A stretch of DNA of 64,000 nt from Protonemura montana (taxonomy: Eukaryota > Arthropoda > Insecta > Plecoptera > Nemouridae), in assembly GCA_947568835.1 (NCBI GenBank), contig OX387607.1:17287701-17351700 (forward strand), read 5' to 3'. The notes beneath the pieces were generated by a model. It had not been told where the DNA came from and did no database searches. It saw only the letters and a program-made list of their open reading frames with translations. Every line of letters starts with the position of its first letter. The first letter of the stretch is position 1. Positions 6,683 to 64,000 of the stretch are shown here, in pieces. The translations under genes and the position numbers were made by a program.

Positions 6683-6872
6683 TTAACCTAACCTAACCTA
6701 ACCTAACCTAACCTAATCTAACCTAACTTAACCTAACCTAACCTAACCTAACCTAACCTAACCTAACCTAACCAAACCTAACCTAACCTAACCTAACCTA
6801 ACCTAACCTAACCTAACCTAACATCACCTAACCTAACCTAACCTAACCTAACCTAACCTAACCTAACCTAAC
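6683..6872 (-). repeat. CCTAA pentanucleotide array (TTAGG on the minus strand)
   Basis: About 38 units of CCTAA with a few substitutions. TTAGG is the telomeric repeat of most arthropods. Here it is flanked by ordinary sequence on both sides, so it is an interstitial block, not a chromosome end. Confidence 0.9.
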
Positions 6873-7350
6873 CTTAAAACTTATCTTAATCTTAAAACTT
6901 GGTTATCATATGGGACTGCACACAATTGACATAGCAATAAGCACAAGCATAGCACACAAGGATCTTAAAACTTGGTTATCATATGGGACTGCACACAATT
7001 GACATAGCAATAAGCACAAGCATAGCACACAAGGATCTTAAAACTTGGTTATCATATGGGACTGCACACAATTAACATAGCAATAAGCACAAGCATAGCA
7101 CACAAGGATCTTAAACTTGGTTGTCATATGGGACTGCACACAATTGACATAGCAATAAGCACAAGCATAGCGCACAAGGATCTTAAACTTGGTTGTCATA
7201 TGGGACTGCACACAATTGACATAGCAATAAGCACAATCATAGCACACAAGGATCTTAAACTTGGTTGTCATATGGGACTGCACACAATTGACATAGCAAT
7301 AAGCACAAGCATAGCGCACAAGGATCTTAAAACTTGGTTATCATATGGGT
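6873..7350. repeat. 72/73-bp tandem repeat (about 6 units)
   Basis: Units read CTTAAAACTTGG, then TTATCATATGGGACTGCACA, then an AT-rich part ending in GCACACAAGGAT. One A more or less in the first run (AAAA or AAA) makes the unit 73 or 72 bp, giving frames that stay open for several units. It starts immediately after the CCTAA block. Confidence 0.9.
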
Positions 7351-22429: not shown

Positions 22430-22990
22430 CATGCACTGATATTACTGAAGTTAAGCAACACTGTGCTGGATCACCGCATTGGATGGGTGACCATCATACA
22501 CATGACCAGTTCTGTTCGGGAGAGAGGTTGGAGGGATGAAAGTTAAGCAACACTGCGCTGGGTCAGGTATTGGATGGGTGACCATCATACACATGACCAG
22601 TTCTGTTCGGGAGAGAGGTTGGAGGGATGAAAGTTAAGCAACACTGTGCTGGGTCACCGTATTGGATGGGTGACCATCATACACATGACCAGTTCTGTTT
22701 GGGAGAGAGGTTGGAGGGATGAAAGTTAAGTAACACTGCGCTGAGTCAGGTATTGGATGGGTGACCATAATACACATGACCGGTTCTGTTCGGGAGAGAG
22801 GTTGGAGGGATGAAAGTTAAGCAACACTGCGCTGGGTCAGGTATTGGATTGGTGACCATCATACACATGACCAGTTCTGTTCGGGAGAGAGGTTGGAGGG
22901 ATGAAAGTTAAGCAACACTGCGCTGGGTCAGGTATTGGATGGGTGACCATCATACACATGACCAGTTCTGTTCGGGAGAGAGGTTGGAGG
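22430..22990 (+). repeat. 5S-rRNA-derived SINE head, tandemly repeated (6 units of 91 bp)
   Basis: Each unit contains AGTTAAGCAACACTGCGC and, with the same 31-base offset as in eukaryotic 5S rRNA, GGATGGGTGACC. These are the box A and box C parts of the 5S internal promoter. The first unit has extra 5S-like sequence at its left (TATTACTGAAG). The non-5S remainder (CATACACATGACCAGTTCTG, then TTCGGGAGAGAGG) links units. The last unit runs directly into the SINE body. Confidence 0.85.
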
Positions 22991-23265
22991 AATGAAAGTT
23001 AGTACAGCAACTTCACTCGCCTTGCTTATCAACCTCTCGACAGCATGGATTTGTGAAGGAATCCTGTTGTTCGAGTTGTACCGTCCTTCGGAAGGGACGT
23101 TAAGCCGGTGGTCCCCTTGGTCTTCAACAGCAGTAGGCTACAAGTCAGCACCGGGTTTCCCCTCCTCCCTTCTAGACTAGGTTAGGTTCATCATCATCCA
23201 CTCATTCACCGACGCCATTAGACCAGTGCCGCATGGCCAGATGTCAAAACAGTGCTAAGTTAAAG
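22991..23265 (+). mobile_element. SINE body (5S-headed family), copy A
   Basis: Starts TAGTACAGCAACTTCACTCG, contains a conserved central block CCGTCCTTCGGAAGGGACGT and ends near CAGTGCTAAGTTAAA. The same body occurs at 24416, 34541 and, inverted, at 31497. A 62-codon frame is open in all four copies, but this follows from SINE identity; the frames differ at their ends. SINE3-type elements have 5S-derived heads; the central block resembles the conserved cores of metazoan SINE superfamilies, which I cannot verify here. Confidence 0.8.
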
Positions 23266-24136: not shown

Positions 24137-24415
24137 ACAGTAGTTAAGTAACACTGCGCTGGGTCAGGTATTGGATGGGTGACTATCATACACATGACCA
24201 GTTCTGTTCGGGAGAGAGGTTGGAGGAATGAAAGTTAAGCAACACTGCGCTGAGTCAGGTATTGGATGGGTGACTATCATACACATGACCAGTTCTGTTC
24301 TGGAGAGAGGTTGGAGGGATGAAAGTTAAGCAACACTGCGCTGGGTCACCGTGTTGGATGGGTGACCATCATACACATGACCAGTTCTGTTCGGGAGAGA
24401 GGTTGGAGGGATGAA
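24137..24415 (+). repeat. 5S-derived SINE head, 3 units
   Basis: Three 91-bp units as at 22430. Just before them CCGTGTTGGAAACACAG gives the 5' part of a 5S-like head, with part of the following 5S sequence missing. Confidence 0.85.
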
Positions 24416-24690
24416 AGTTAGTACAGCAACTTCACTCGCCTTGCTTATCAACCTCTCGACAGCATGGATTTGTGAAGGAATCCTGTTGTTCGCGTTGTAC
24501 CGTCCTTCGGAAGGGACGTTAAGTCGGTGGTCCCCTTGGTCTTCGACAGGAGTAGGCTACGAGCCGGCACCGGGTTTCACCTCCTGTCTTCTAGGCTGAG
24601 AAAGGTTCATCATCACCCACTCATTCACCGACGCCATTAGACCAGTGCCACATGGCCAGATGTCAAAACAGTGCTAAGTTAAACACCAAT
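24416..24690 (+). mobile_element. SINE body, copy B
   Basis: Near-identical to copy A, ending CAGTGCTAAGTTAAACACC. Confidence 0.8.
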
Positions 24691-25469: not shown

Positions 25470-26077
25470 TTACCACCAGACCCTCGGTGCTTGTGGGTGC
25501 ATCAGTGGGTGGGTGTAGGAAGGCATGGCAAGATGATGACTTGTAAGTTGTCCTTCCTTGACGTTTCCTTGTCCCAGACAAGACTTTCCATCTCGTACCA
25601 ACACTGGTACTGCTACCCTCCTGGGACTAGGCATTGTATTGACAGAGTTATGTGGCTCGTGTATTCCCTTCTCTTGCTGAGCTCTTTTAGTCTTGTACCT
25701 GTGATTCTGAAACCAAATCTTGACTTGTGTGGGACTGAGTCGAATGATACTGGCGAGATGTTCCCGCTCTGGCGCTGACAGGTATCGTTGTTGTCGAAAC
25801 CTTCTCTCCAACTCATAAGTTTGCGCCTTGGAGAAGAGCACCCTGCGTTTCCTCTTCTTCTGTCCGGGTTGGGAGTTGGCTTCTTCCGTCTCGTGCTCCG
25901 AGTCCATATCCTCGTTGACAGAGTCGTCGTCGCCGTGCTTTTGATGCGTTGAGTCGGCGTCGTGGGGGTGGTAAGAGGTTGGTGATAGACTGACATCCAC
26001 GTCACGTGGTGCTCCGGGCAATGAAGAGTTCGGTGATGTGCTGTCAGGAGACACTTGCTGGGTCTGAACCATCAGTC
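25470..26077 (-). CDS. vnd: vnd/Nkx2.2-type homeobox gene, C-terminal exon
   Basis: This exon encodes 201 residues and the stop. An acidic linker leads to an NK2-class homeodomain at exon residues 74-133, with helix-3 core WFQNHRYK carrying Gln50, Asn51 and the NK2-specific Tyr54. The NK2-SD motif [13 protein letters not shown] lies at 152-164, and the protein ends HPQAPRVWW, comparable to the end of vertebrate Nkx2.2. KTKRAQ after the core matches insect vnd better than the KMKRAR of vertebrates. Vnd/Nkx2.2 proteins are nuclear transcription factors that pattern ventral neural progenitors. The acceptor is TTCTCTGTTCTAG (AG at 26078-26079), entering with two bases, in phase with the donor of the exon at 30855. 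No stop or frameshift is present, so it looks functional. Confidence 0.93.
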
Positions 26078-26100: not shown

Positions 26101-26555
26101 AGTAACATATTCTTCCAGACTTGATCCCATACAAGTTCAGGAGTAACATATTCTTCCAGACTTGATCCCATACAAGTTCAGGAGTAACATATTCTTCCAG
26201 ACTTGATCCCATGCAAGTACAGGAGTAACATATTCTTCCAGAACTTGATCCCATGCAAGTTCAGGAGTAACATATTCTTCCAGACTTGATCCCATACAAG
26301 TTCAGGAGTAACATATTCTTCCAGAACTTGATCCCATACAAGTTCAGGAGTAACATATTCTTCCAGACTTGATCCCATACAAGTTCAGGAGTAACATATT
26401 CTTCCAGACTTGATCCCATACAAGTTCAGGAGTGACATATTCTTCCAGACTTGATCCCATACAAGTTCAGGAGTAACATATTCTTCCAGACTTGATCCCA
26501 TGCAAGTACAGGAGTAACATATTCTTCCAGACTTGATCCCACACAAGTTCAGTAG
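26101..26555 (-). repeat. 41-bp minisatellite at the 3' end of the vnd intron (about 11 units)
   Basis: Units read AGTAACATATTCTTCCAG, then (A)ACTTGATCCCATACAAG and TTCAGG on the plus strand. Some units have one or two extra bases (AGAACTTG). The array abuts the branch-point region of the last intron. Confidence 0.9.
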
Positions 26556-27654
26556 TTTCCCAAACAAAGCATCTACCGCCATGTTTTTGAGATAAACTGG
26601 AAAGTTTAGCAAACGGTTTGTATCGCAACTAGAATCCCATCATACGCATGAGATGTCCCGACCGACAGCTCGACTTTGATTGGTGGTTGGAAGTTACAAT
26701 TCGTTCTTCAATGATCTCGGTGAATATCATGGTAACACATCTGCCACATTTACCTTGACAATTCTTATGTTAAACTTTGCAAGCTGCTACCGTGTCGACC
26801 GGTTTTACCCCTGAGAGGCGTAGAATTCAACCAACGGGCTCTCGCTATTGGCACCCTAAAGAAGGAAGGGCGGGGTCACGGGCTCTTTGTTGGGATATTA
26901 GTAGATACCGATAACTGAGCGAATTGTCGTGAATGTGCTTTGTGAAACGCCGTGTGATTTCTATGGGTGCACCTCTGGGTGAACGGGCGTGATGGGATCG
27001 AAGCTATATATGGGTATAATATACCGTAGAGCTATTACCGACGCTATATCGGGACAAGAAGCGATCTTTTCACATATAACCGATGTTATTCAAGTTACAT
27101 AAGAATCACATTTTAATGTAAACAACCTCAAGCCACAAAATGTTCAGAATTTTAGCCGACAATTGGCAATGTATTTTCTATTTATGTTTTGCCGCTCACG
27201 TACAGAATTCTGCCCGGTTTGTACATAGAGATAAACTGCTATAGAATCACATGTTAATGTTGGAGAACTTACCAAGTTACTTTTACTTTTCTAATAAACT
27301 CCAAACGAGCTCTGTCACGAGGTTTGTATTAGTGAAAAACACTATCAATTACTATTTGAAAAGTTGAATGTTTGATTTGTTTTCCCAGCGCTTGTCGGTG
27401 GATGAAAGATCACCCTTCCAACTTGCCAGTTTATACTTGCCACCGATCTGCATAAAGCGACTCGAGCCACCGCGATTTATTTTCATTTCCCAGTAAAATA
27501 TTATTAATAATAACATCGCATCGTCCGCCTCCTCCGCGTTCATTCACGCCGTTCCTTTTGTGGTTCACCGTCATCAATAACAATTAACTGGGTTTGCATA
27601 CGCGTTGAACACCACTACGTTCGGGGGTAGATTTCACGCACTAATTCCCTCCCT
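26556..27654. other. vnd intron, unique part
   Basis: Unique AT-rich sequence; no gene seen on either strand. Could hold intronic enhancers but nothing in the sequence proves it. Confidence 0.4.
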
Positions 27655-28155: not shown

Positions 28156-29869
28156 CTCGACAGAGTAACTCTCACCCCTTGTCCCAGCTAAACGAGTGTG
28201 TGATATACTTAGTTGGGGGATGGGAAGGGATGGGAAGGGATGGGAAGGGAGGAGGGGGTTGTTAGTGCGGAGAAGCAATAATAGACGTGTTTCCTGGGGA
28301 TTCGTTTCAACCAGAGGCTAACAGATTCTGTTGTTTACCAGCGACACCCCGTCTATTCCTCCTCCGAAACCAGAAGACCAAAATGTCACCAAAATGTCTC
28401 TAGAAATGCCACAAAAATGTGGTCAAATATCTGAACGCTTGAAGTTCATAACAAGGTTTGATTACCAAGAAAACATGAAATGCTTTCAGGAATTCTTATT
28501 AATGTACGTTTCAAAAAGTTTGCCTTCCTTCCGTGACCCAGTTTTTTTGTAAGATGATCGCAAAGAAAAGTTGCGTCAGTTTGATAAATTGCAGAAAATT
28601 GGTTGTAACAAAAAAAAGCAAGACCCGAACAAAGTCGCCTTGTAAGTAGATTCGTCTCCCCTTGCATTTCATGGCTCTGGAATTACATGAAGCTATAGTC
28701 ACATGCTAAGTCCTCTTAGCTTATTGATGTGATATGTACAATATGTCGCCCACCCCTTGCCACCCCTTGCCACCCCTTGCCACCCCTTGCCACCAACCCC
28801 TCATATAATGCAAGGCTTTCATTATGTCCGTTATGAATAAAGATTGGCGACTCCGATTAAAGCTAAAATGTTCATACTTGGTTTCTGTATTGATTTTAAC
28901 AACACATACGAGGGCTCACAACTAAGTGGTTCCTGATGGCGACTGCTCGTTGCTTTATCTGTAATGCGTGCCGTTCATTGGTTGATTATAATAAATACAA
29001 TTGTCATAACTTAATTACAGGACTAAGATTAGCTCAGCAACATCAACATAGCAACATCAACATAGCAACATCAACATAGCAATCAAGCAGCAGAAAGAAA
29101 GTGAAATATATTTGTATTTTAAAATTATCAAATTATTTCAAGTCTAAATGTTCCAAAGCGTGCAGTCGAGAAGTTTGTCGATTTCTTTCTATTTTTGTCG
29201 CTCAAACTTTACCTCCGTCTAAAACTTGCCATTTAATTTCTGAAAATAACTGGCAAATGGCAAAAAGAGTTTGTTCCTGAAAGTGCTGCGTGGTCCCGAC
29301 CTATCGGGACATAGCGGGTCACCCCTCCCTTAAAAACAGCTGCTCCAATCTCGTATCCATTCACTGGTCAATTTGCTAGCATCTCACCCCATCTTGTATT
29401 CATTACAGATCGCTTGCTCGTCACGGCGGGGGCGTTGTGTGCGGGGGGGGGGGGGGGGGGGGGGGGGTGGAGGGGAGCAGGGAAGAAGAAGCGGGGGGTA
29501 AACGTTATTTATGAGCATGTAATAGAATTGACTCACATTGTCGCGTTCTATCTACTTAGTGAAGAGATTGCTGCTACAGAGATTAGCTCATCTATCGCTA
29601 ATTTAATGATTTAACTGCAAGGCGAAATCTTGTCGGGTCTCTCAAACGAGCTGTGAAAAGCTTTCGAATCTTGGTAGTAGAGCATTTCCTGATCTAGCGA
29701 CTTGGTGATAACTAGCCTAGGAGGGAGGAGAGGAAGCCCGGTGCCGGTCAGTAGCGTCCCACACATTTCCCATCTCATTTTCTGGGCAAAAAAACTTGCA
29801 TTGACTTACCTATAAGACTACAGTTTGAAAAAGTATGATCCCACCTCTATATGATCTGTGTTTTAACAA
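28156..29869. other. vnd intron, with short repeats and a SINE scrap
   Basis: Holds CACCCCTTGC repeated four to five times (28750-28793), AACATCAACATAGC repeated three times (29038-29080), and a run of about 24 G at 29445-29468. A piece of the SINE body on the minus strand lies at 29703-29760. A decayed 36-bp unit (CTTACCTATAAG) lies near 29805. No gene seen. Confidence 0.6.
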
Positions 29870-30842
29870 GGTATTGACTTACCTATATGGTCTATGTTTT
29901 GGCTAGGTATGTACTCACCTATATGATCTGTGTTTTGGCTAGGTATGGACTCACCAATATGATCAGTGTTTTGGCTAGGTATTGACTCACCTATATGGTC
30001 TATGTTTTGGCTAGGTATGTACTCACCTATATGATCTGTGTTTTGGCTAGGTATTGACTCACCTATATGATCTGTGTTTTGGCTAGGTATTGACTCACCT
30101 ATATGATCTGTGTTTTAACAAGGTATTGACTCACCTATATGATCTGTGTTTTGGCTAGGTATTGACTCACCTATATGATCTGTGTTTTGGCTAGGTATTG
30201 ACTCACCTATATGATCTGTGTTTTGGCAAGGTATGTACTCACCTATATGATCTGTGTTTTGGCTAGGTATGTACTCACCTATATGATCTGTGTTTTGGCT
30301 AGGTATGGACTCACCTATATGATCTGTGTTTTGGCTAGGTATGAACTCACCTATATGGTCTATGTTTTGGCTAGGTATGAACTCACCTATATGGTCTATG
30401 TTTTGGCTAGGTATGGACTCACCTATATGATCTGTGTTTTGGCTAGGTATTGACTCACCTATATGATCTATGTTTTGGCTAGGTATGTACTCACCTATAT
30501 GGTCTATGTTTTGGCTAGGTATGTACTCACCTATATGGTCTGTGTTTTGGCTAGGTATTGACTCACCTATATGATCTGTGTTTTGGCTAGGTATTGACTC
30601 ACCTATATGATCTGTGTTTTGGCTAGGTATGAACTCACCTATATGATCTGTGTTTTGGCTAGGTATGTACTCACCTATATGGTCTATGTTTTGGCTAGGT
30701 ATGTACTCACCTATATGGTCTGTGTTTTGGCTAGGTATTGACTCACCTATATGATCTGTGTTTTGGCTAGGTATTGACTCACCTATATGATCTGTGTTTT
30801 GGCTAGGTATGGACTCACCTATATGATCTGTGTTTTGGCTAG
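29870..30842 (-). repeat. 36-bp minisatellite made of copies of the vnd 5' splice site (27 units)
   Basis: Twenty-seven 36-bp units lie head to tail and end directly at the exon donor. On the minus strand each reads about CATATAGGTGAGTCCATACC, then TAGCCAAAACACAGAT. Almost all contain ATAG followed by GTGAGT, the donor sequence of the adjacent exon; one has GTAAGT and one ATTG before GTGAGT. The unit is a multiple of 3 and has no stop in the exon's frame. Read-through stays open for 20 units until a TTTTAACAAG variant gives TAA near 30115, and would add 12-residue repeats of the type NTDHIGESIPSQ. Confidence 0.92.
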
Positions 30843-30854
30843 GTATGAACTCAC

Positions 30855-31040
30855 CTATATGATCGGTGTTCTCTGTTCCCGGTTGGCTCCACGCATGTCT
30901 AGGATGCGGTGGTAACAACGTGTGCTCGCCGATATTCCCTTGATTTACTCCCGAGTACAGAGCGTGATGAGCGGCATATGACGCGGCAAGTGACGTCAGC
31001 TCGTGGTGAGTTGGATGGCCGGGAAGTAGTGACAAAGAAC
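30855..31040 (-). CDS. vnd: vnd/Nkx2.2-type homeobox gene, upstream exon
   Basis: The exon is 186 bp between acceptor TTCATTCTTATACCACCAG and donor ATAG/GTGAGT at 30854-30855. It enters and leaves in phase 1, matching the homeodomain exon, which needs one leading base (the joined codon is Gly). It encodes about 61 residues rich in His, Ala and Ser, including AASYAAHHALYSG. This fits the spacer between the N-terminal TN motif and the homeodomain in NK2.2 proteins, and sits where vertebrate Nkx2.2 has its intron. The TN motif and start codon must be on a further exon, which I did not find between here and the right edge. The link to the homeodomain exon is inferred from phase, strand and spacing. 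Confidence 0.65.
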
Positions 31041-31059: not shown

Positions 31060-31380
31060 ATCTGTATTTCAATTGCAAACGCTTGTAATGCGCGGGGTAT
31101 TTTATTATTAACAACACTATACTAACTGTCTCAAAACTTGATGCCCAAACGCGGACTCGAACCCCGATCTCCGCCTATCTGCTCTGAACCATTGAGCTAT
31201 TTGGACACTGGCTTTTTGAGACGATTTAAGTGTATTTTATTGGGCATATTGGCATTTTTGGCATATTATTATTATTATTATTTTATTATTATTTAATAAT
31301 ATATTTTGGCATATTGTTTGGGCATCACTTTTTGAGACGGTTATAGTGTTGTTAATAATAAAATAACCCGGTGAAAAACC
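31060..31380. mobile_element. Inverted-repeat element carrying a tRNA-like core
   Basis: Left end GGGGTATTTTATTATTAACA, then ACACTATACTAACTGTCTCA and GATGCCC (31096-31148). The right end (31319-31370) is its reverse complement, GGGCATCAC to GTTAATAATAAAATAACC. Between them lies the tRNA-like unit and a TTATTATTAT run. Non-coding; class uncertain (MITE or SINE inside a palindrome). Confidence 0.7.
31137..31206 (-). other. tRNA-like sequence (pseudo-tRNA or SINE head)
   Basis: Minus strand: TGTCCAAATAGCTCAATGG, D-arm, an abnormal anticodon arm, then GATCGGGGTTCGAGTCCGCG with a good B-box. The ends pair only partly, so it is not a normal tRNA gene. It matches the 52-bp array monomer at 1-1351 and has the T-arm the array lacks. 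Confidence 0.7.
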
Positions 31381-31496: not shown

Positions 31497-31775
31497 GTGT
31501 TTAGCTTAGCACTGTTTTGACAACTGGCCATGCGGCACTGGTCTAATGGCGTCGGTGAATGAGTGGATGGTGATGAACCTAACCTAGCCTAGAAGGGAGG
31601 AGGGGAAACCCGGTGCTGGCACGTAGCCTACTCCTGTCGAAGACCAAGGGGAACCATCGGCTTAACGTCCCTTCCGAAGGACGGTACAACGCGAACAACA
31701 GGATTCCTCCACAAATCCATGCTGTCGAGAGGTTGATAAGCAAGGCGAGTGAAGTTGCTGTACTAACTTTCATCC
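31497..31775 (-). mobile_element. SINE body, copy C
   Basis: Inverted copy of the body seen at 22991, from TTAGCACTGTTTTGACAACT to GTACTAACTTTCATCCCTCC. Confidence 0.8.
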
Positions 31776-32345
31776 CTCCAACCTCTCTCCCGAACAGAAC
31801 TGGTCATGTGTATGATGGTCACCCACCCAATACCTGACCCAGCGCAGTGTTGCTTAACTTTCATCCCTCCAACCTCTCTCCCGAACAGAACTGGTCATGT
31901 GTATGATGGTCACCCATTCAATACCTGACCCAGCGCAGTGTTGCTTAACTTTCATCCCTCCAACCTCTCTCCCGAACAGAACTGGTCATGTGTATGATGG
32001 TCACCCATCCAATACCTGACTCAGCGCAGTGTTGCTTAACTTTCATCCCTCCAACCTCTCTCCCGAACAGAACTGGTCATGTGTATGATGATCACCCATC
32101 CAATACCTGACCCAGCGCAGTGTTTCTTAACTTTCATCTCTCCAACCTCTCTCCCGAACAGAACTGGTCATGTGATGATGGTCACCCATCCAATACCTGA
32201 CCCAGCGCAGTGATGCTTAACTTTCATCCCTCCAACCTCTCTCCCGAACAGAACTGGTCATGTGTATGATGGTCACCCATCCAATACCTGACACAGCGCA
32301 GTGTTGCCCAACTTCGGTGATCTAAAGAGAACCAGTGTTTCCAAC
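31776..32345 (-). repeat. 5S-derived SINE head, 6 units, with the best-preserved 5S 5' part
   Basis: Six 91-bp units on the minus strand. The outermost one continues (read on the minus strand) as GGAAACACTGGTTCTC, GATCACCGAAGTTGGGCAAC, which follows eukaryotic 5S rRNA closely. Together with the box A/box C spacing this shows that the head derives from 5S rRNA. It is not a functional rRNA gene because the 3' third is missing. Confidence 0.85.
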
Positions 32346-32699
32346 ACGCCAAACTGTTCAGTAACAAAATACTCATTGTAATGAACTTTGTCTTACCGGT
32401 TGTGCCCAGCATTTTGGAATTCAGAAAACAGCTTTTAAAAATGATTAACTCTGACACCGAACTTTCAGGCATTGATTGGCTATTCATCACGTGGCCGCAC
32501 GCTAGGAGATATGCATCTGTTTTATAATATTCCACACATAGTTCGGCCATTTTGAAAAGCTTTTTCAGGTGAGTGCAGTTGTTAAGTGGCTCTTTGCAAG
32601 CAGGTAGACGCCGTCCTGATGGAGGCGTCGAGCGAACACGCACTCGGCAATTAGTGACCGCCTCTAGCATCGCCGGGGAAACGTAATATATCACCTGGG
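32346..32699. other. No gene seen
   Basis: Unique sequence; a minus-strand frame reaching 32694 starts inside it and runs into the SINE, with no family motif. Confidence 0.3.
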
Positions 32700-33220: not shown

Positions 33221-34339
33221 GCTAGTGATATGTTATATGTTATAAGCTAGATATGATCTAAGAGCTTTGCTGGCATTTTGCTTCTCTCGTCTCATGCCAC
33301 GACTGCTTCCGTAAAAAGCATCTCTTTATGAATTAATAATTGATTTAAAAGTGAGTTTATGTAATTAAATTGAGCGCAGCTATATCTTGTTGGCCACCGA
33401 TCTGATGATCGCAATGTACTGATAGGTTCGTGCAGCGGGGATGTTATTATTGGATAACTGCTTCTTTAATCAATGGGTTGATGTCTTCACCCTATAACCA
33501 GCTACAACGCCTCTCCACCCAGCCGTGTGGTTTTACCAATAACTTGCCCCACTTGCCCCACTTTGTTTGATGAACCGCTACAACTCAAGCATCTGTTGTT
33601 CGAGGTGGGAATTCTATCAAATCAAATCAAACAAACTCTAAAACACCCGACCGTTGTTGTTTGCGTGTTCATTTCAATGTTTTAGCCTGTGATTTGTGTG
33701 GCATTTGTGTGCTGGGAAAAGTGTGTCCCGCATTGAAAATGTTGCTATCCGGAAAATGCAGCTATCGTTTATTCAAGTTTACCGGTGAACCAAAGAGCAA
33801 CCCAAAGAGGAACCAAAGAGCAAACTTAGGATTCTCTACGGCCAACTCGTTCTCTGATTATGTTACTGGAAAATCACTCGATGCTAGTTCCGTGAAATCG
33901 GATTTCATTGCACGTTCTTGCAATGCCTAAATATGAAACCTTTCAAGAAAATGTTGTCCAGCGACGAAGCTATGGATAACATCTTGGTCTTTTTACAGCA
34001 TGGTAGGTAGCATGGTAGTTAGCATGGTAGTTAGCATGCTATAGGTAGCATATGGTATATGATAGCATGGAGGATGTACCTTGGTGTAACTGCGTATGCT
34101 CTTGTGGTTCACTTTGTTGCTGTGTTTTCCCGGCGTCGTTCAAGTCCAAAATATCGCAGATGTGGAAACCTGACGATCGCGTCGGCAACTTCATGTTTTC
34201 AAATAATCTGCAACAATTCAACCAAAATACTGGGCTCAGTTTCACGATACAATTTTACATCTAAAAGATGGAATCACGTTCAGGTTTATCAAAGTGTGAA
34301 ACATTACTGAAATACATGTGTCGATCATTTCCTTGGACC
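33221..34339. other. No gene seen
   Basis: Unique sequence with a short TAGCATGGTAGT repeat (34000-34040). Frames at 33661-33930 and 34052-34310 show no family motif. Confidence 0.35.
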
Positions 34340-34540
34340 GGGACTCGTGAGATTACCGAAGTTAAGCAACACTGCGCTGGGTCAGGTATCGGATGGGTGA
34401 CCATCATACACATGACCGGTTCTGTTCGGGAGAGAGGTTGGAGGGATGAAAGTTAAGCAACACTGCGCTGGGTCTGGTATTGGATGGGTGACCATCATAC
34501 ACATGACCAGTTCTGTTCGGGAGAGAGGTTGGAGGGATGA
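34340..34540 (+). repeat. 5S-derived SINE head, 2 units
   Basis: Starts ACTCGTGAGATTACCGAAG, then AGTTAAGCAACACTGCGC and GGATGGGTGACC. The first unit keeps 5S-like sequence 5' of box A; the second is the usual 91-bp unit. Confidence 0.85.
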
Positions 34541-34815
34541 AAGTTAGTACAGCAACTTCACTCCCCTTGCTTATCAACCTCTCGACAGCACGGATTTGTG
34601 GAGGAATCCTGTTGTTCGAGTTGTACCGTCCTTCGGAAGGGACGTTAAGCCGGTGGTCCCCTTGGTCTTTGACAGGAGTAGGCTACGTGCCGGCACCGGG
34701 TGTCCCCTCCTCCCTTCTAGGCTAGGTTAGGTTCATCATCATCATTCTCTCATTGACCGACGACTTTAAACCAGTGCCACATGGCCAGATGTCAAAACAG
34801 TGCTATGTTAAACAC
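34541..34815 (+). mobile_element. SINE body, copy D
   Basis: Same body as at 22991, ending CAGTGCTATGTTAAACAC. Confidence 0.8.
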
Positions 34816-40749: not shown

Positions 40750-41095
40750 ACAAGTTCTGTTCGGGAGAGAGGTTGGAAGGATGAAAGTTAAGCAGCACTG
40801 CGCTGGGTCATGTATTGGATGGGTGACCATCATACACATGACCAGTTCTGTTCGGGAGAGAGGTTGGAGGGATGAAAGTTAAGCAACACTGCGCTGGGTC
40901 AGGTATTGGATGGGTGACCATCATACACATGACCAGTTCTGTTTGGGAGAGAGGTTGGAGGTATGAAAGTTGAGCAACACTGCGCTGGGTCAGGTATTGG
41001 ATGGGTGATCATCATACACATGACCAGTTCTGTTTGGGAGAGAGGTTGGAGGGATAAAAGTTAAGCAACACTGCGCTGGGTCAGATATTGGATGG
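40750..41095 (+). repeat. 5S-derived SINE head, 4 units, no body
   Basis: Four 91-bp units; the last is broken within box C (GGATGGG) where TTAGG repeats begin. The SINE body that should follow is absent. Confidence 0.85.
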
Positions 41096-41363
41096 GTTAG
41101 GTTAGGTTAGGTTAGGTTAGGTTAGGTTAGGTTAGGTTAGGTTAGGTTATGTTAGGTTAGGTTATCTTAGGTTAGGTTAGGTTAGGTTAGGTTAGGTTAG
41201 GTTAGGTTATGTTAGGTTAGGTTAGGTTAGGTTAGGTTAGGTTATGTTAGGTTAGGTTAGGTTAGGTTAGGTTAGGTTAGGTTAGGTTAGGTTAGGTTAG
41301 GTTAGGTTAGGTTAGGTTAGGTTAGGTTAGGTTAGGTTATGTTAGGTTAGGTTAGGTTAGATG
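41096..41363 (+). repeat. TTAGG array fused to a SINE head
   Basis: About 53 units of TTAGG with a few TTATG/TTATC variants. It starts exactly after GGATGGG of the 5S-like head and ends in unique sequence. Confidence 0.92.
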
Positions 41364-53997: not shown

Positions 53998-54204
53998 TGG
54001 TTCCTCCAGCTGTGACTGCGGTGAGATAAGTGCTTATCTCCCTGCATTATCTGACTCCAGATGGTGCTATTGTTGGCAATTGTTACCAACATCAGTTTAA
54101 TTATCTAACGCCATGTGTTTATCTCTGCACTAGACGAGTTGGCATCGACGAGGGTTGTACACGGTTGTACTAAGGAACTCGCTATCAAATATATCTCCCA
54201 TTTC

Positions 54205-54612
54205 ATAGGATCCAGCCAGCTGATCTCAAATAACCTGGATAGAGCATAGGATGCAGCCAGCTGATCTCAAATAACCTGGATAGAGCATAGGATCCAGTCA
54301 GCTGATCTCAAATAACCTGGATAGAACATAGGATCCAGCCAGCTGATCTTAAATAACCTGGATAGAGCATAGGATGCAGCCAGCTGATCTCAAATAACCT
54401 GGATAGAGCATGGGATCCAGCCAGCTGATCTCAAATAACATGGATAGAGCATAGGATCCAGCCAGCTGATCTCAAATAACCTGGATAGAGCATAGGATCC
54501 AGGCAGCTGATCTCAAATAACCTGGATAGAGCATAGGATCCAGCCAGCTGATCTCAAATAACCTGGATAGAACATAGGATCCAGCCAGCTGATCCCAAAT
54601 AACCTGGATACA
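54205..54612. repeat. 41-bp tandem repeat (about 10 units)
   Basis: Unit: GGATCCAGCCAGCTGATCTC, then AAATAACCTGGATAGAGCATA. Contains CAGCTG and GGATCC palindromes. Few substitutions. Confidence 0.92.
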
Positions 54613-55754: not shown

Positions 55755-56952
55755 AAAAATTGGTCATGTGTATGATGGTCACCCATCCAATACCTGACCC
55801 AGCGCAGTGTTGCTTAACTTTCATCCCTTCGACCTCTCTCCCGAACAGAACTGGTCTTGTGTATGATGATCACCCATCCAATACCTGACCCAGCGCAGTG
55901 TTGCTTAACTTTCATCCCTTCGACCTCTCTCCCGAACAGAACTGGTCATGTGCATGATGGTCACCCATCCAATACCTGACCCAGCGCAGTGTTGCTTAAC
56001 TTTCATCCCTCCAACCTCCCTCCCGAACAGAACTGGTCATGTGTATGATGGTCACCCATCCCATACCTGACTCAGCGCAGTGTTGCTAACTTTCATTCCT
56101 CCAACCTCTCTCCCGAACAGAACTGGTCATGTGTATGATGGTCACCCATCCAATACCTGACCCAGCGCAGTGTTGCTTAACTTTCATCCCTCCAACCTCT
56201 CTCCCGAACAGAACTGGTCATGTGTATGATGGTCACCCATCCAATACCTGACCCAGCGCAGTGTTGCTTAACTTTGATCCCTCCAACCTCTCTCCCGAAC
56301 AGAACTGGTCATGTGTATGATGGTCACCCATCCAATACCTGACTCAGCGCAGTGTTGCTTAACTTTCATCCCTCCAACCTCCCTCCCGAACAGAACTTGT
56401 CATGTGTACTATGGTCACCTATCCAATACCTGACCCAGCGCAGTGTTGCTTAAATTTCATCACTCCAACCTCTCTCCCGAACAGAACTGGTCATGTTTAT
56501 GATGGTCACCCATCCAATACCTGACCCAGCGCAGTGTTGCTAACTTTCATTCCTCCAACCTCTCTCCCGAACAGAACTGGTCATGTGTATGATGGTCACC
56601 CATCCAATACCTGACTCAGCGCAGTGTTGCTTAACTTTCATCCCTCCAACCTCCCTCCCGAACAGAACTTGTCATGTGTACTATGGTCACCTATCCAATA
56701 CCTGACCCAGCGCAGTGTTGCTTAAATTTCATCACTCCAACCTCTCTCCCGAACAGAACTGGTCATGTTTATGATGGTCACCCATCCAATACCTGACCCA
56801 GCGCAGTGTTACTTAACTTTCATCCCTCCAACCTCTCTCCCGAACAGAACTGGTCATGTGTATGATGGTCACCCATCCAATTCAGTGACCCAGCGCAGTG
56901 TTGCTTAACTTTCATCCCTCCAACCTCTCTCCCGAACAGAACTGGTCATGTG

Positions 56953-56955
<3 letters not shown>
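55755..56955 (-). repeat. 5S-derived SINE head array, about 13 units
   Basis: The largest head array: thirteen 91-bp units on the minus strand, no SINE body at the left end. A block of four units with shared variants (GAACTTGTCATGTGTACTAT, CATGTTTATGATGG) occurs twice (56330-56520 and 56620-56810), showing multi-unit duplication. The right end is cut inside a unit by the LINE tail. Confidence 0.9.
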
Positions 56956-59261: not shown

Positions 59262-59309
59262 AATAGGTTCTAGGGTTCCTATCAATAACAACACGGCTCA
59301 CGTTATAAA
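59262..59309 (-). repeat. 48-bp repeat, copy 1 (next to gag)
   Basis: GATCGTTTATAACGTGAGCC, GTGTTGTTATTGATAGG, AACCCTAGAACC on the minus strand. The same 48 bp occurs at 61754-61803. It may be the end of an LTR. Confidence 0.6.
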
Positions 59310-59633
59310 CGATCGCCATTCACGATCGTAGTATGCTAGCTCTACCATCTCCGAGCTGACGTCTTCGAGGTTACGCATGGAGGTGAAGTGGCGGCCAAGT
59401 AGTACCCGCCTCGCGAATGGGGTGGCATGCTCTATGACGCATCTAATTTTGTCGGACTCCTCCGCAGGGTCGCCGATACGCATATATAATTCATTTATCG
59501 CGCGGACAAACGATGCAAAGTTCTCCTCCTCGTGCTGGTATCGCTGAGCTAGGTCCAGCTGCAAGCGACGCTTGCGGTCATGGCACCCAAAAGCCTCGTG
59601 CAAGTCCTTGCAAAAGGCTTGCCAGTCTCAACT
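59298..59633 (-). pseudogene. LTR-retrotransposon gag fragment
   Basis: About 110 residues beginning DWQAFCKDLHEAFG and including ENFASFVRAINELYMRIGD and PFARRVLLG. The W-F-L-F pattern followed by a helix with ELY and R-I is the core of the retrotransposon gag family (capsid domain). No zinc knuckle, protease or polymerase follows; the frame runs into the 48-bp repeat. At the other end a stop lies just upstream. Confidence 0.65.
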
Positions 59634-62064: not shown

Positions 62065-63290
62065 TTATTCTTGCGGATTTCCCAATCCACGTGGGTTTAA
62101 AATATGCATAGCTTCAGGGTCCATCAGAAGATCATGAAGTGAAGCTTTAGCTGCAATATTAGCTTCAGTAGGATTATTTGCTGCATTACCCATTTCAAGA
62201 ACAAATGCTGTAATAAATTCCTGAAGCTTTTCTTGTTGAATAGGTTTGGATGTCCAACCTTTATATTGTTTCAAAGACTCTTTGCCAAAGACTTGAACCA
62301 TTATTTCCTTTGCTACAAAGGTAAGAGATTTGTAATGAGTAGATGCAACAATTCCCATCTCCTTTTTAAAACCATAATACTCATTGCCGTTGACTTCACG
62401 AACTGCTAATGTGAATCTCTGAATTTCTCCAGGTATCAGGGCATAACTTTTTCCCAAGGGAAACTGGGTAGCTTCCAAAATTGTAGCCATTGCTGTCATG
62501 CCTGCTAATGCAGTTTGCCTCATGTTGAGTTTCAACCTCAGAGCATGTTGAGGAATCCATGACTACCATGTTGTGAAAATTGAACCAGCATTGTTTTCAT
62601 TCACATATTCACCATAGCTTTTGAACAAAACTGGTACAATTCCGTCAGGGAATTCAATTGTTATTCCTGTTAGAGACAAAATATCATCAGAATACTTTGA
62701 AAGATTCCTGTCATTTGCCATTCCTTTCCTAGCTAAAGCCAAATGTGTAAATACAATGATCTGTAATCCCAAGTTGATTCCCGCAGGGCGAATCCTTGAA
62801 GCCATCCACATCATAATGGCAACTGCATCGGGGAAATTCCCATTACCAGCATAATTTTCTGGCCATGGAAACAATTGAGGTAATGCACGTCTATCAATTT
62901 CAGGGATTGCCTCAGAAAGTGCACCACCATTCCCAATGGCTTCCACCCATGACTCGGTATCCACATCAATATGAGAATTGAGTCTTGGCATATGGATCAA
63001 GTGATTCACGGCTTTACCAAAACCAGCGTGTGCCATTTCTTCATTTCGCCTCAAATTCCCAGGAATTCTAGGTGACATTAATTCACCTACCATTACTGTG
63101 TATAATTCACAAATGTCAGTGGAGCGATTTCTGGTGGTTTTTGCAACTGCATACAAATACACCATCTGAGGGATCATTCGATGACTGAAATCACCATCAA
63201 ATGGAGGATAGTTCAGGGAAGCAACAATGAAATTACGGGAATATGGTGAAGGAGTCAAAACTTTGAGCCATCGTGGAACGGATCCCAGCA
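62065..63290 (-). pseudogene. Endogenous viral element, nucleoprotein-like (tentative)
   Basis: A single minus-strand frame runs from about 63290 (62563-63258 and 62065-62562 in the ORF sense) to a natural-looking stop at 62065. It is broken once, by an in-frame TAG at 62563-62565. About 400 residues of ordinary globular, helix-rich, intron-free protein. Its general make-up reminds me of nucleoproteins of negative-strand RNA viruses (Mononegavirales, or chuvirus-like viruses of arthropods), which are often captured in arthropod genomes. I cannot confirm this without a search. It replaces the middle of the P-like transposase reading; the N-terminus appears missing at that junction. Alternatives are a captured cellular gene or an unknown transposon ORF. 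Confidence 0.4.
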
Positions 63291-64000
63291 GTAACTGACC
63301 CGCTGAAGACTTGCGCCGCCAGATTAACCCGCATTTTCTGCTGAGAAGTGGGGTTAAGATGCGCCTCCGTTAGTTTGGGCACCACATGGTAGACAGTTTT
63401 TGGAAACAAAGTCTCAATATGTTCCCAGCGTGCCTCTTTCTGGATGGGAAGATCAGCACGGGCCGGCTCAGATGCCTCGGAAGCTTCTGGAGTCCAGATG
63501 ACGTCGTACTTCATGAAAGCATTCCGAAGGTTCTTTAGCAAGTGGGGCGGATCCTAGAGGACAGCTATGTCATCATCGTTAATCCGGAAAACTTTCCCGT
63601 ATTGGGGCAGCTCAACTGTAGATGGATGAGATTTGACAAGGGAGTCGAGTGCAGCCACATTGGTTGGAGCCTGGTCACAGAGAACGTTAGCCACATGCAA
63701 ACCCGCCCGCTGCAAGTCCTCAACCACTTGGACGACCAGCGACTGCAACGAGGCTGTTTTTGTGGTGTCCTTGCAAAAGTAGTAGACAATGGGCTGCTTC
63801 CACTTCTTCCTCAGCCCACGGACCATGAAAACAAGAGCATGGTTGGCAAACTCATTGGATCGCCCTAGATCACCGAAGTCCTCATACCCGACGATTCGAT
63901 CAAGCTTTTCAGAGTAGGAAATACCTGTGCTAAGAGAGATTTCATCGAAGAGTACCGAGCACACTCGGTCAGAGTCGTTCATCTTGGAGACCTTTTCACG
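63285..64000 (-). pseudogene. P-element/THAP9-like transposase, partial
   Basis: The frame enters at the right window edge and contains VLFDEISLSTG, LDRIVGYEDFG, ANHALVFMVRGLRKKWKQP, YYFCKDTTKT and NVLCDQAPTN: the RNase-H-like core of P-element/THAP9 transposases, with the expected Asp in FDE and CDQ. After an in-frame TAG at 63554-63556 it continues DPPHLLKNLRNAFMKYD, ARWEHI and KLTEAHLNP to AAQVFS, then departs from the family near 63290. The N-terminal THAP finger would lie beyond the window; the GTP-binding/C-terminal part is replaced by the nucleoprotein-like segment. These enzymes cut and paste DNA transposons. The stop and truncation make it inactive. Confidence 0.85.

Follow-up and report, generated by a model that had tools for sequence, protein, structure and literature searches.

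A minisatellite with a splice donor in each unit at an exon-intron junction of a stonefly NK2.2/vnd homologue

Tandem repeats that cross exon-intron boundaries have been described before. In amphioxus, the Adh3 and globin genes carry such repeats, termed 'mirages', on either the donor side or the acceptor side (PMC3087553). Adh3 units measure 10-72 bp, the units of BflGb6, 150-160 bp long, number 6 or 3 depending on the haplotype, and BflGb9 is also a case; the Adh3 data and globin reverse transcription PCR (RT-PCR) are reported to suggest that mirages leave regular splicing undisturbed (PMC3087553). Human tandem repeats at exon-intron boundaries of genes in segmental duplications can create alternative splicing patterns (PMC2812944). 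The Rogers model, cited in PMC3087553, has introns gained through tandem duplication of segments that hold AG/GT (compare the potato RdRp gene, PMC4974935). Here we describe a repeat of this kind in the stonefly Protonemura montana, where a 36-bp array spans the exon 2 donor of a homologue of the homeobox gene NK2.2/vnd. The window, that is, the whole stretch of DNA analysed, comprises 64,000 nucleotides (17287701-17351700 of contig OX387607.1) of an assembly of 258 Mb (GCA_947568835.1).

The gene and the array at its exon 2 donor

The sole gene recognised in the window lies on the minus strand and, by frame and homology, is an NK2.2/vnd homologue. It encodes an NK-2-type homeodomain (PF00046 match, 3.8e-19), and an N-terminal TN motif is found with two further blocks in one frame across three exons separated by phase-1 introns. 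The five best database matches cover 99-100% of the joined protein of 302 residues at 49-54% identity. They are named Nkx-2.5-like (Periplaneta), hypothetical protein (two entries), Nkx-2.2-like (Zootermopsis) and ventral nervous system defective (Carabus), and the top two come from the cockroaches Periplaneta (53%) and Blattella (54%). Because LFEN, which stands just before the TN motif, resembles the LLDN of relatives, at least one further exon likely lies upstream. The main features are as follows, with a slash at each exon-intron junction.

~34080..34207, minus strand: TN-motif exon (SGFHICDILDLNDAG); opens after ttgttgcag, ends CACCAAG/gtacat in phase 1, aligns to insect orthologs from MKLPTRSS on
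30855..31040, minus strand: exon 2 (186 nt; phase 1 at either end); the final 16-18 nt form the repeat's first exonic copy
25470..26077, minus strand: coding part of the homeodomain exon (tctag/GACTGATGG to VWW stop); homeodomain at 25683-25853
30849..30854, minus strand: exon-side donor GTGAGT (TAG/GTGAGT); duplex with the 5' end of U1, -10.6 kcal/mol
29847..30870, minus strand: 36-bp junction-spanning array (exon end, donor and intron start)
29877..30818, minus strand: 27 in-register donor copies (26 AG/GTRAGT, 1 TG/GTGAGT)
30115..30117, minus strand: TAA, the first stop reached on reading through from exon 2 into the array in the exon frame
29804..29809, minus strand: out-of-register GTAAGT after AG, just beyond the array end
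26101..26556, minus strand: second array in the same intron, 41 bp x 11.1; stops 23 nt before the homeodomain-exon acceptor, whose AG lies outside it

The structure of the array can be read directly. Tandem Repeats Finder (TRF) reports it as a single array with a period of 36 bp, 28.4 copies and 93% matches. From 30854 to 29882 on the minus strand, 28 successive positions at exact 36-nt steps all carry a donor GT; 27 read AG/GTRAGT, one (29954) reads TG/GTGAGT, and 26 are exactly ATAG/GTGAGT. AGGTRAGT occurs 28 times across the array and just beyond it, 27 times in register and once at 29809. Starting with the first complete codon of exon 2, the exon frame can be read for 307 codons before the TAA at 30117-30115, and 21 AGGTRAGT donors (30854 plus 20 extra) precede this stop. 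Each unit, if read through, would add 12 residues of the GESIPSQNTDHI type. Five variable columns are common to at least two units, and none falls inside the 9-nt donor (chance P 0.21).

We observed that the repeat is continuous with the exon. It reaches 16-18 nt into exon 2 (the TRF array overlaps the last 16 nt), and 16 of the last 18 exon bases match the unit. A 108-base array query against the genome gave 11 matches, all inside the array at 29847-30870; the query skips very common words, so that this count does not prove the unit absent elsewhere. From the exon-end homology and these local matches we conclude that the array arose from the exon 2 junction, exonic piece included. A D-H pair at the exon end is common to three cockroach and termite relatives (STDHG, RNDHG and SSDHG, NTDHI here), a weak sign that the exon end predates the array. 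Within the array the unit order BBCDE is followed by BBCDF. Such repeated orders are a sign that multi-unit blocks were duplicated, which suggests turnover of the array.

An earlier note, made from the letters of this stretch alone, had anticipated much of this. It assigned the locus to a homeobox (vnd) gene and 30855-31040 to its transcript, and both assignments are supported, the second by frame and homology: the exon shares one frame with the homeodomain exon in a protein matched over nearly its full length. Its counts were also accurate: the donor has 27 further in-register copies, nearly all units carry ATAG/GTGAGT, and the unit is a multiple of 3 with the frame open over about 20 units. 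Its statement that the units start exactly at the donor has to be corrected, as the array extends into the exon.

The locus shares the structural anatomy of a junction-spanning repeat with the amphioxus mirages [PMC3087553]: its units are of minisatellite size and cross the boundary (36 bp, 16 nt into exon 2), and they combine exonic sequence with AG/GT (16 of 18 bases; AG/GTRAGT in 27 of 28). It differs from them in lying in a developmental homeobox gene of an insect, in having 27 extra copies that mostly keep a full consensus donor, and in its frame-neutral period. As in the human cases, boundary repeats alter exon-intron structure and splicing may keep or remove them; those cases, however, concern recently duplicated paralogs with transcript support (PMC2812944), whereas the NK2.2 array is known from the genome. 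The duplicated segment bears AG/GT, the raw material of the Rogers model, but the unit has no pyrimidine tract and no new intron is shown. Worm intronic minisatellites (PMC4039745) were rejected as a parallel, as that paper concerns splicing motifs and not repeated donors. No homeobox-gene and no insect case appeared in the open-access literature searched, as judged by titles and abstract openings. The earlier note's remark that no case had been described thus stands, within that literature, for developmental regulators and fails for the kind: junction-spanning minisatellites are already described.

Donor arrays at other exons of the genome

We searched the assembly for three successive AG/GTRAGT donors with 16-46 bases between them. 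For AGGTGAGT, this gave 80 matches at 12 places. A single dispersed 36-bp unit accounts for five of these places; the remaining seven units, the NK2.2 array included, were each listed at a single place. For AGGTAAGT, 27 matches fell at four places, and three were left after setting aside a simple AGGT-type repeat; the reversed AGGTAAGT gave ten matches in total. The reversed word TGAGTGGA served as a control and gave 51 matches at six places. A dispersed 47-bp unit accounts for three of these; the others are an 8-bp repeat, a 5S-like unit on C5 and, on C14, a long-unit array listed once, whose right edge, the only edge inspected, showed no sign of an exon by eye. Single-place long-unit arrays therefore number one for TGAGTGGA, or two with the 5S-like unit, against seven for AGGTGAGT. 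In 191,068 ordinary bases the relation is the opposite, with TGAGTGGA commoner than AGGTGAGT (10 versus 3); AGGTAAGT occurs there 10 times forward and 4 times reversed. By this control, arrays whose units all carry AGGTGAGT are overrepresented.

The two words together yield ten single-place donor arrays. After reading the flank before the first donor in the nine arrays other than NK2.2, we found that six of the ten, NK2.2 included, start at an exon supported by homology. The other five supported arrays are these.

C2-domain exon: match 4.9e-11 (Pfam)
JHBP-like exon: 2.3e-6, 27.4 bits, just below the Pfam cut-off of 29.2
UBR5 exon: match 4.4e-6
DNA ligase 3 exon: match 3.1e-13; 34 of 37 exon-end bases are the same as in the unit
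RFX exon: match 1.2e-23; 8 exon-end bases shared with the unit

RFX and ligase 3 mark the two ends of the range of shared length, 8 to 37 bases, in these five. Support for these exons comes from homology, their frames being no longer than chance allows (9-35%). An open frame leading up to the donor was not accepted as a sign of an exon, as 13.5% (L038) and 23% (L041) of 5000 random positions equalled or exceeded the observed frames; these two arrays, with open frames alone, were not counted as supported. L037, on C1, resembles an acceptor-side case of the opposite strand and has no Pfam match, and the flank of L045 before the first donor held no recognisable exon. Judged from these arrays, this insect genome has evidently amplified exon-intron junctions into minisatellites repeatedly. 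A rarely described amphioxus phenomenon is thereby carried into an insect, where it recurs at the NK2.2, UBR5, RFX, DNA ligase 3, C2-domain and JHBP-like genes.

The main periods of the five are 34 (with one spacing of 36), 47, 32, 43 and 41, none divisible by 3. One period in six divisible by 3 is within chance, and the 36 of NK2.2 therefore looks like chance as well. Several of the five genes are conserved core genes. Most donors outside the frame-keeping third would shift the reading frame in the five, and the simplest account is splicing from the exon-side donor, or else removal of the wrong products. Such arrays offer natural experiments on which of up to 28 near-identical donors is chosen and on what keeps the choice exact where errors shift the frame. 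They also supply live raw material to models that explain shifted exon ends or new introns by tandem duplication of AG/GT segments.

With a longer spacing of 46-76 bases between donors, there were 334 matches compared to 50 for the reversed pattern. Among the matches listed, three more places (L046-L048) were examined; one is possibly a first exon, and the others show no exon. One of them (L048) is the C15 60-bp array, with a period divisible by 3, which carries AG/GTAAGT in long runs of units (581168-582075 and 587045-588012 among the matches listed) and shows no exon at its left edge. At the RFX gene we also observed another array, in the intron that precedes the exon pair (L043, first 280 bases, minus-strand reading), so that arrays lie on both sides.

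Use of the donors and competing explanations

We consider it probable that the NK2.2 array is a junction-born minisatellite of the mirage type, in which most or all transcripts are spliced from the exon-side donor, the rest is intron, and divisibility of the period by 3 is a matter of chance. A 36-nt segment that took in the 3' end of exon 2 together with the first bases of the intron would have been duplicated in tandem, and slippage or unequal exchange, in a genome region unusually rich in arrays, may have amplified it to 27 extra copies. Donor 30854 would then serve most or all transcripts, with everything beyond it removed as intron. The array would be tolerated, since its exon-side copy still offers an intact donor in the correct position. 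Which donor is used, and that the array is neutral, we infer; the local origin and the recurrence at donors of other genes are the observations behind this. Splicing from 30854 predicts 18 residues between the conserved W and QVSPDSTSP, and three cockroaches and a termite have 14-19 there (counted by eye). No 12-residue repeat is present at the corresponding place in any of the 17 NK2.2 relatives aligned out of the best 120 database matches.

Tandem arrays occupy 37.7% of the window; in the 191,068 bases surrounding 20 further homeodomain exons in this genome, their share is 4.5%. Random shifts of the gene model around the window placed one or both of its donors in an array in 63% of cases, and an array at a donor is therefore unsurprising here. 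The coding exons share 16 of 905 bases with arrays versus 339 expected (P 0.09 under the same shifts).

Several points weigh against this explanation. None of the 20 other homeodomain-gene loci examined, a sample that includes one (L026) without a donor at the expected place, has an array across its donor, and a donor-spanning array is therefore uncommon. U1 pairing, and sequence alone, does not mark out the exon-side donor: among the 27 copies, 17 have the same duplex energy as 30854 and 8 are at -12.0 kcal/mol, and the weakest are 29954 (-9.2, 1.4 kcal/mol weaker) and 29882 (-10.5, 0.1 weaker). The scoring of each unit that the earlier note had proposed thus finds 25 of 27 copies equal to or better than 30854, and singles out no one site. 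Between equal donors, the intron-side one can win. Finally, 5 of 11 distinct unit variants are synonymous versus 20% expected (binomial P 0.054, uncorrected for mutation bias and with several of the 11 variants beyond the stop). If real, this lean would fit coding constraint, and it gives a slight hint for a coding reading of the array.

That coding reading is the main competitor. The spliceosome would pick among 21 near-equal in-frame donors and produce Vnd proteins with 0-20 copies of the 12-residue repeat ahead of the homeodomain, varying between transcripts and individuals and set by a fast-mutating minisatellite. The preserved frame across 21 near-consensus donors before the first stop, the 8 of 27 copies in the whole array that pair better with U1 than 30854 does, and the synonymous lean are what it can draw on. 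The earlier note had treated this frame-keeping as meaningful, a view that the other genes do not support: in all five other supported arrays the main period is indivisible by 3, and mixing of donors would shift the frame there. Such repeats are absent from the 17 aligned relatives, and the 7 in-register donors past the stop would yield a predicted protein of ~346 residues (from the Met before the TN motif) without a homeodomain. Use of the donors in this way is possible from the sequence, with little beyond the open frame to support it, and we regard it as unlikely; if true, one homeobox gene would give a length series of transcription factors. Spare donors might instead guard against loss of the true one, so that selection retains the array. 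The donor GT at 28 of 28 in-register positions, with 26 identical over ATAG/GTGAGT, agrees with such a buffer, but freedom of the donor from shared variable columns is within chance, and in arrays of other periods two thirds of the spare donors would presumably shift the frame. We give this a very small chance of being correct.

Stepwise removal of the intron, with each ATAG/GTGAGT acting as acceptor and then as donor, would be favoured by the juxtaposition of AG and GT at 27 of 28 in-register positions. However, the 20 nt before the unit AG are 40% pyrimidine, compared to 75% and 70% at the real acceptors of the gene, which makes such recursive splicing the most improbable of the explanations considered. 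That the array has a part in transcription of the locus, regulatory or structural and apart from splicing, is as remote a possibility as the buffer: the same intron also ends in the 41-bp array and over a third of the window consists of arrays, but a density this high would rather argue for background turnover. A junction-born minisatellite with the exon-side donor in use thus remains the explanation that we favour.

Repeat families around the gene

Arrays are found close to donors at some of the other homeodomain genes. In 4 of the 20 loci an array begins ~25, 35, 90 or 240 nt into the intron. The array that begins ~35 nt past the donor of the homeodomain exon, in L027, has a 92-bp unit that resembles a 91-bp unit of the window. 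The latter is tandem at six places (22448-23001, 24142-24420, 31764-32314, 34359-34546, 40753-41097 and 55761-56955) and is apparently derived from 5S rRNA, with an Rfam 5S match at 32242-32362; its arrays perhaps lie inside copies of a 5S-derived short interspersed nuclear element (SINE). A 41-bp unit (CATAGGATCCAGCCAGCTGATCTC...) is common to 54204-54610 of the window and to L034 (2161-3675), ~25 nt into the intron of another homeodomain gene. Its presence at two loci indicates that some minisatellite families are dispersed.

Other repeated material was noted in the window. A 52-bp unit of tRNA-like appearance is present in 26 copies at 1-1352, and an Rfam tRNA match lies at 31142-31206, just upstream of NK2.2 exon 2; this tRNA-like material is probably a tRNA-derived SINE. 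Blocks of TTAGG, the telomere-type repeat of insects, occur within the chromosome arm at 6684-6874 (TAACC x38) and 41095-41360 (GGTTA x53). Open frames that by eye resemble remains of mobile elements (gag-like and transposase-like) are located at 59301-59627 and 62068-64000.
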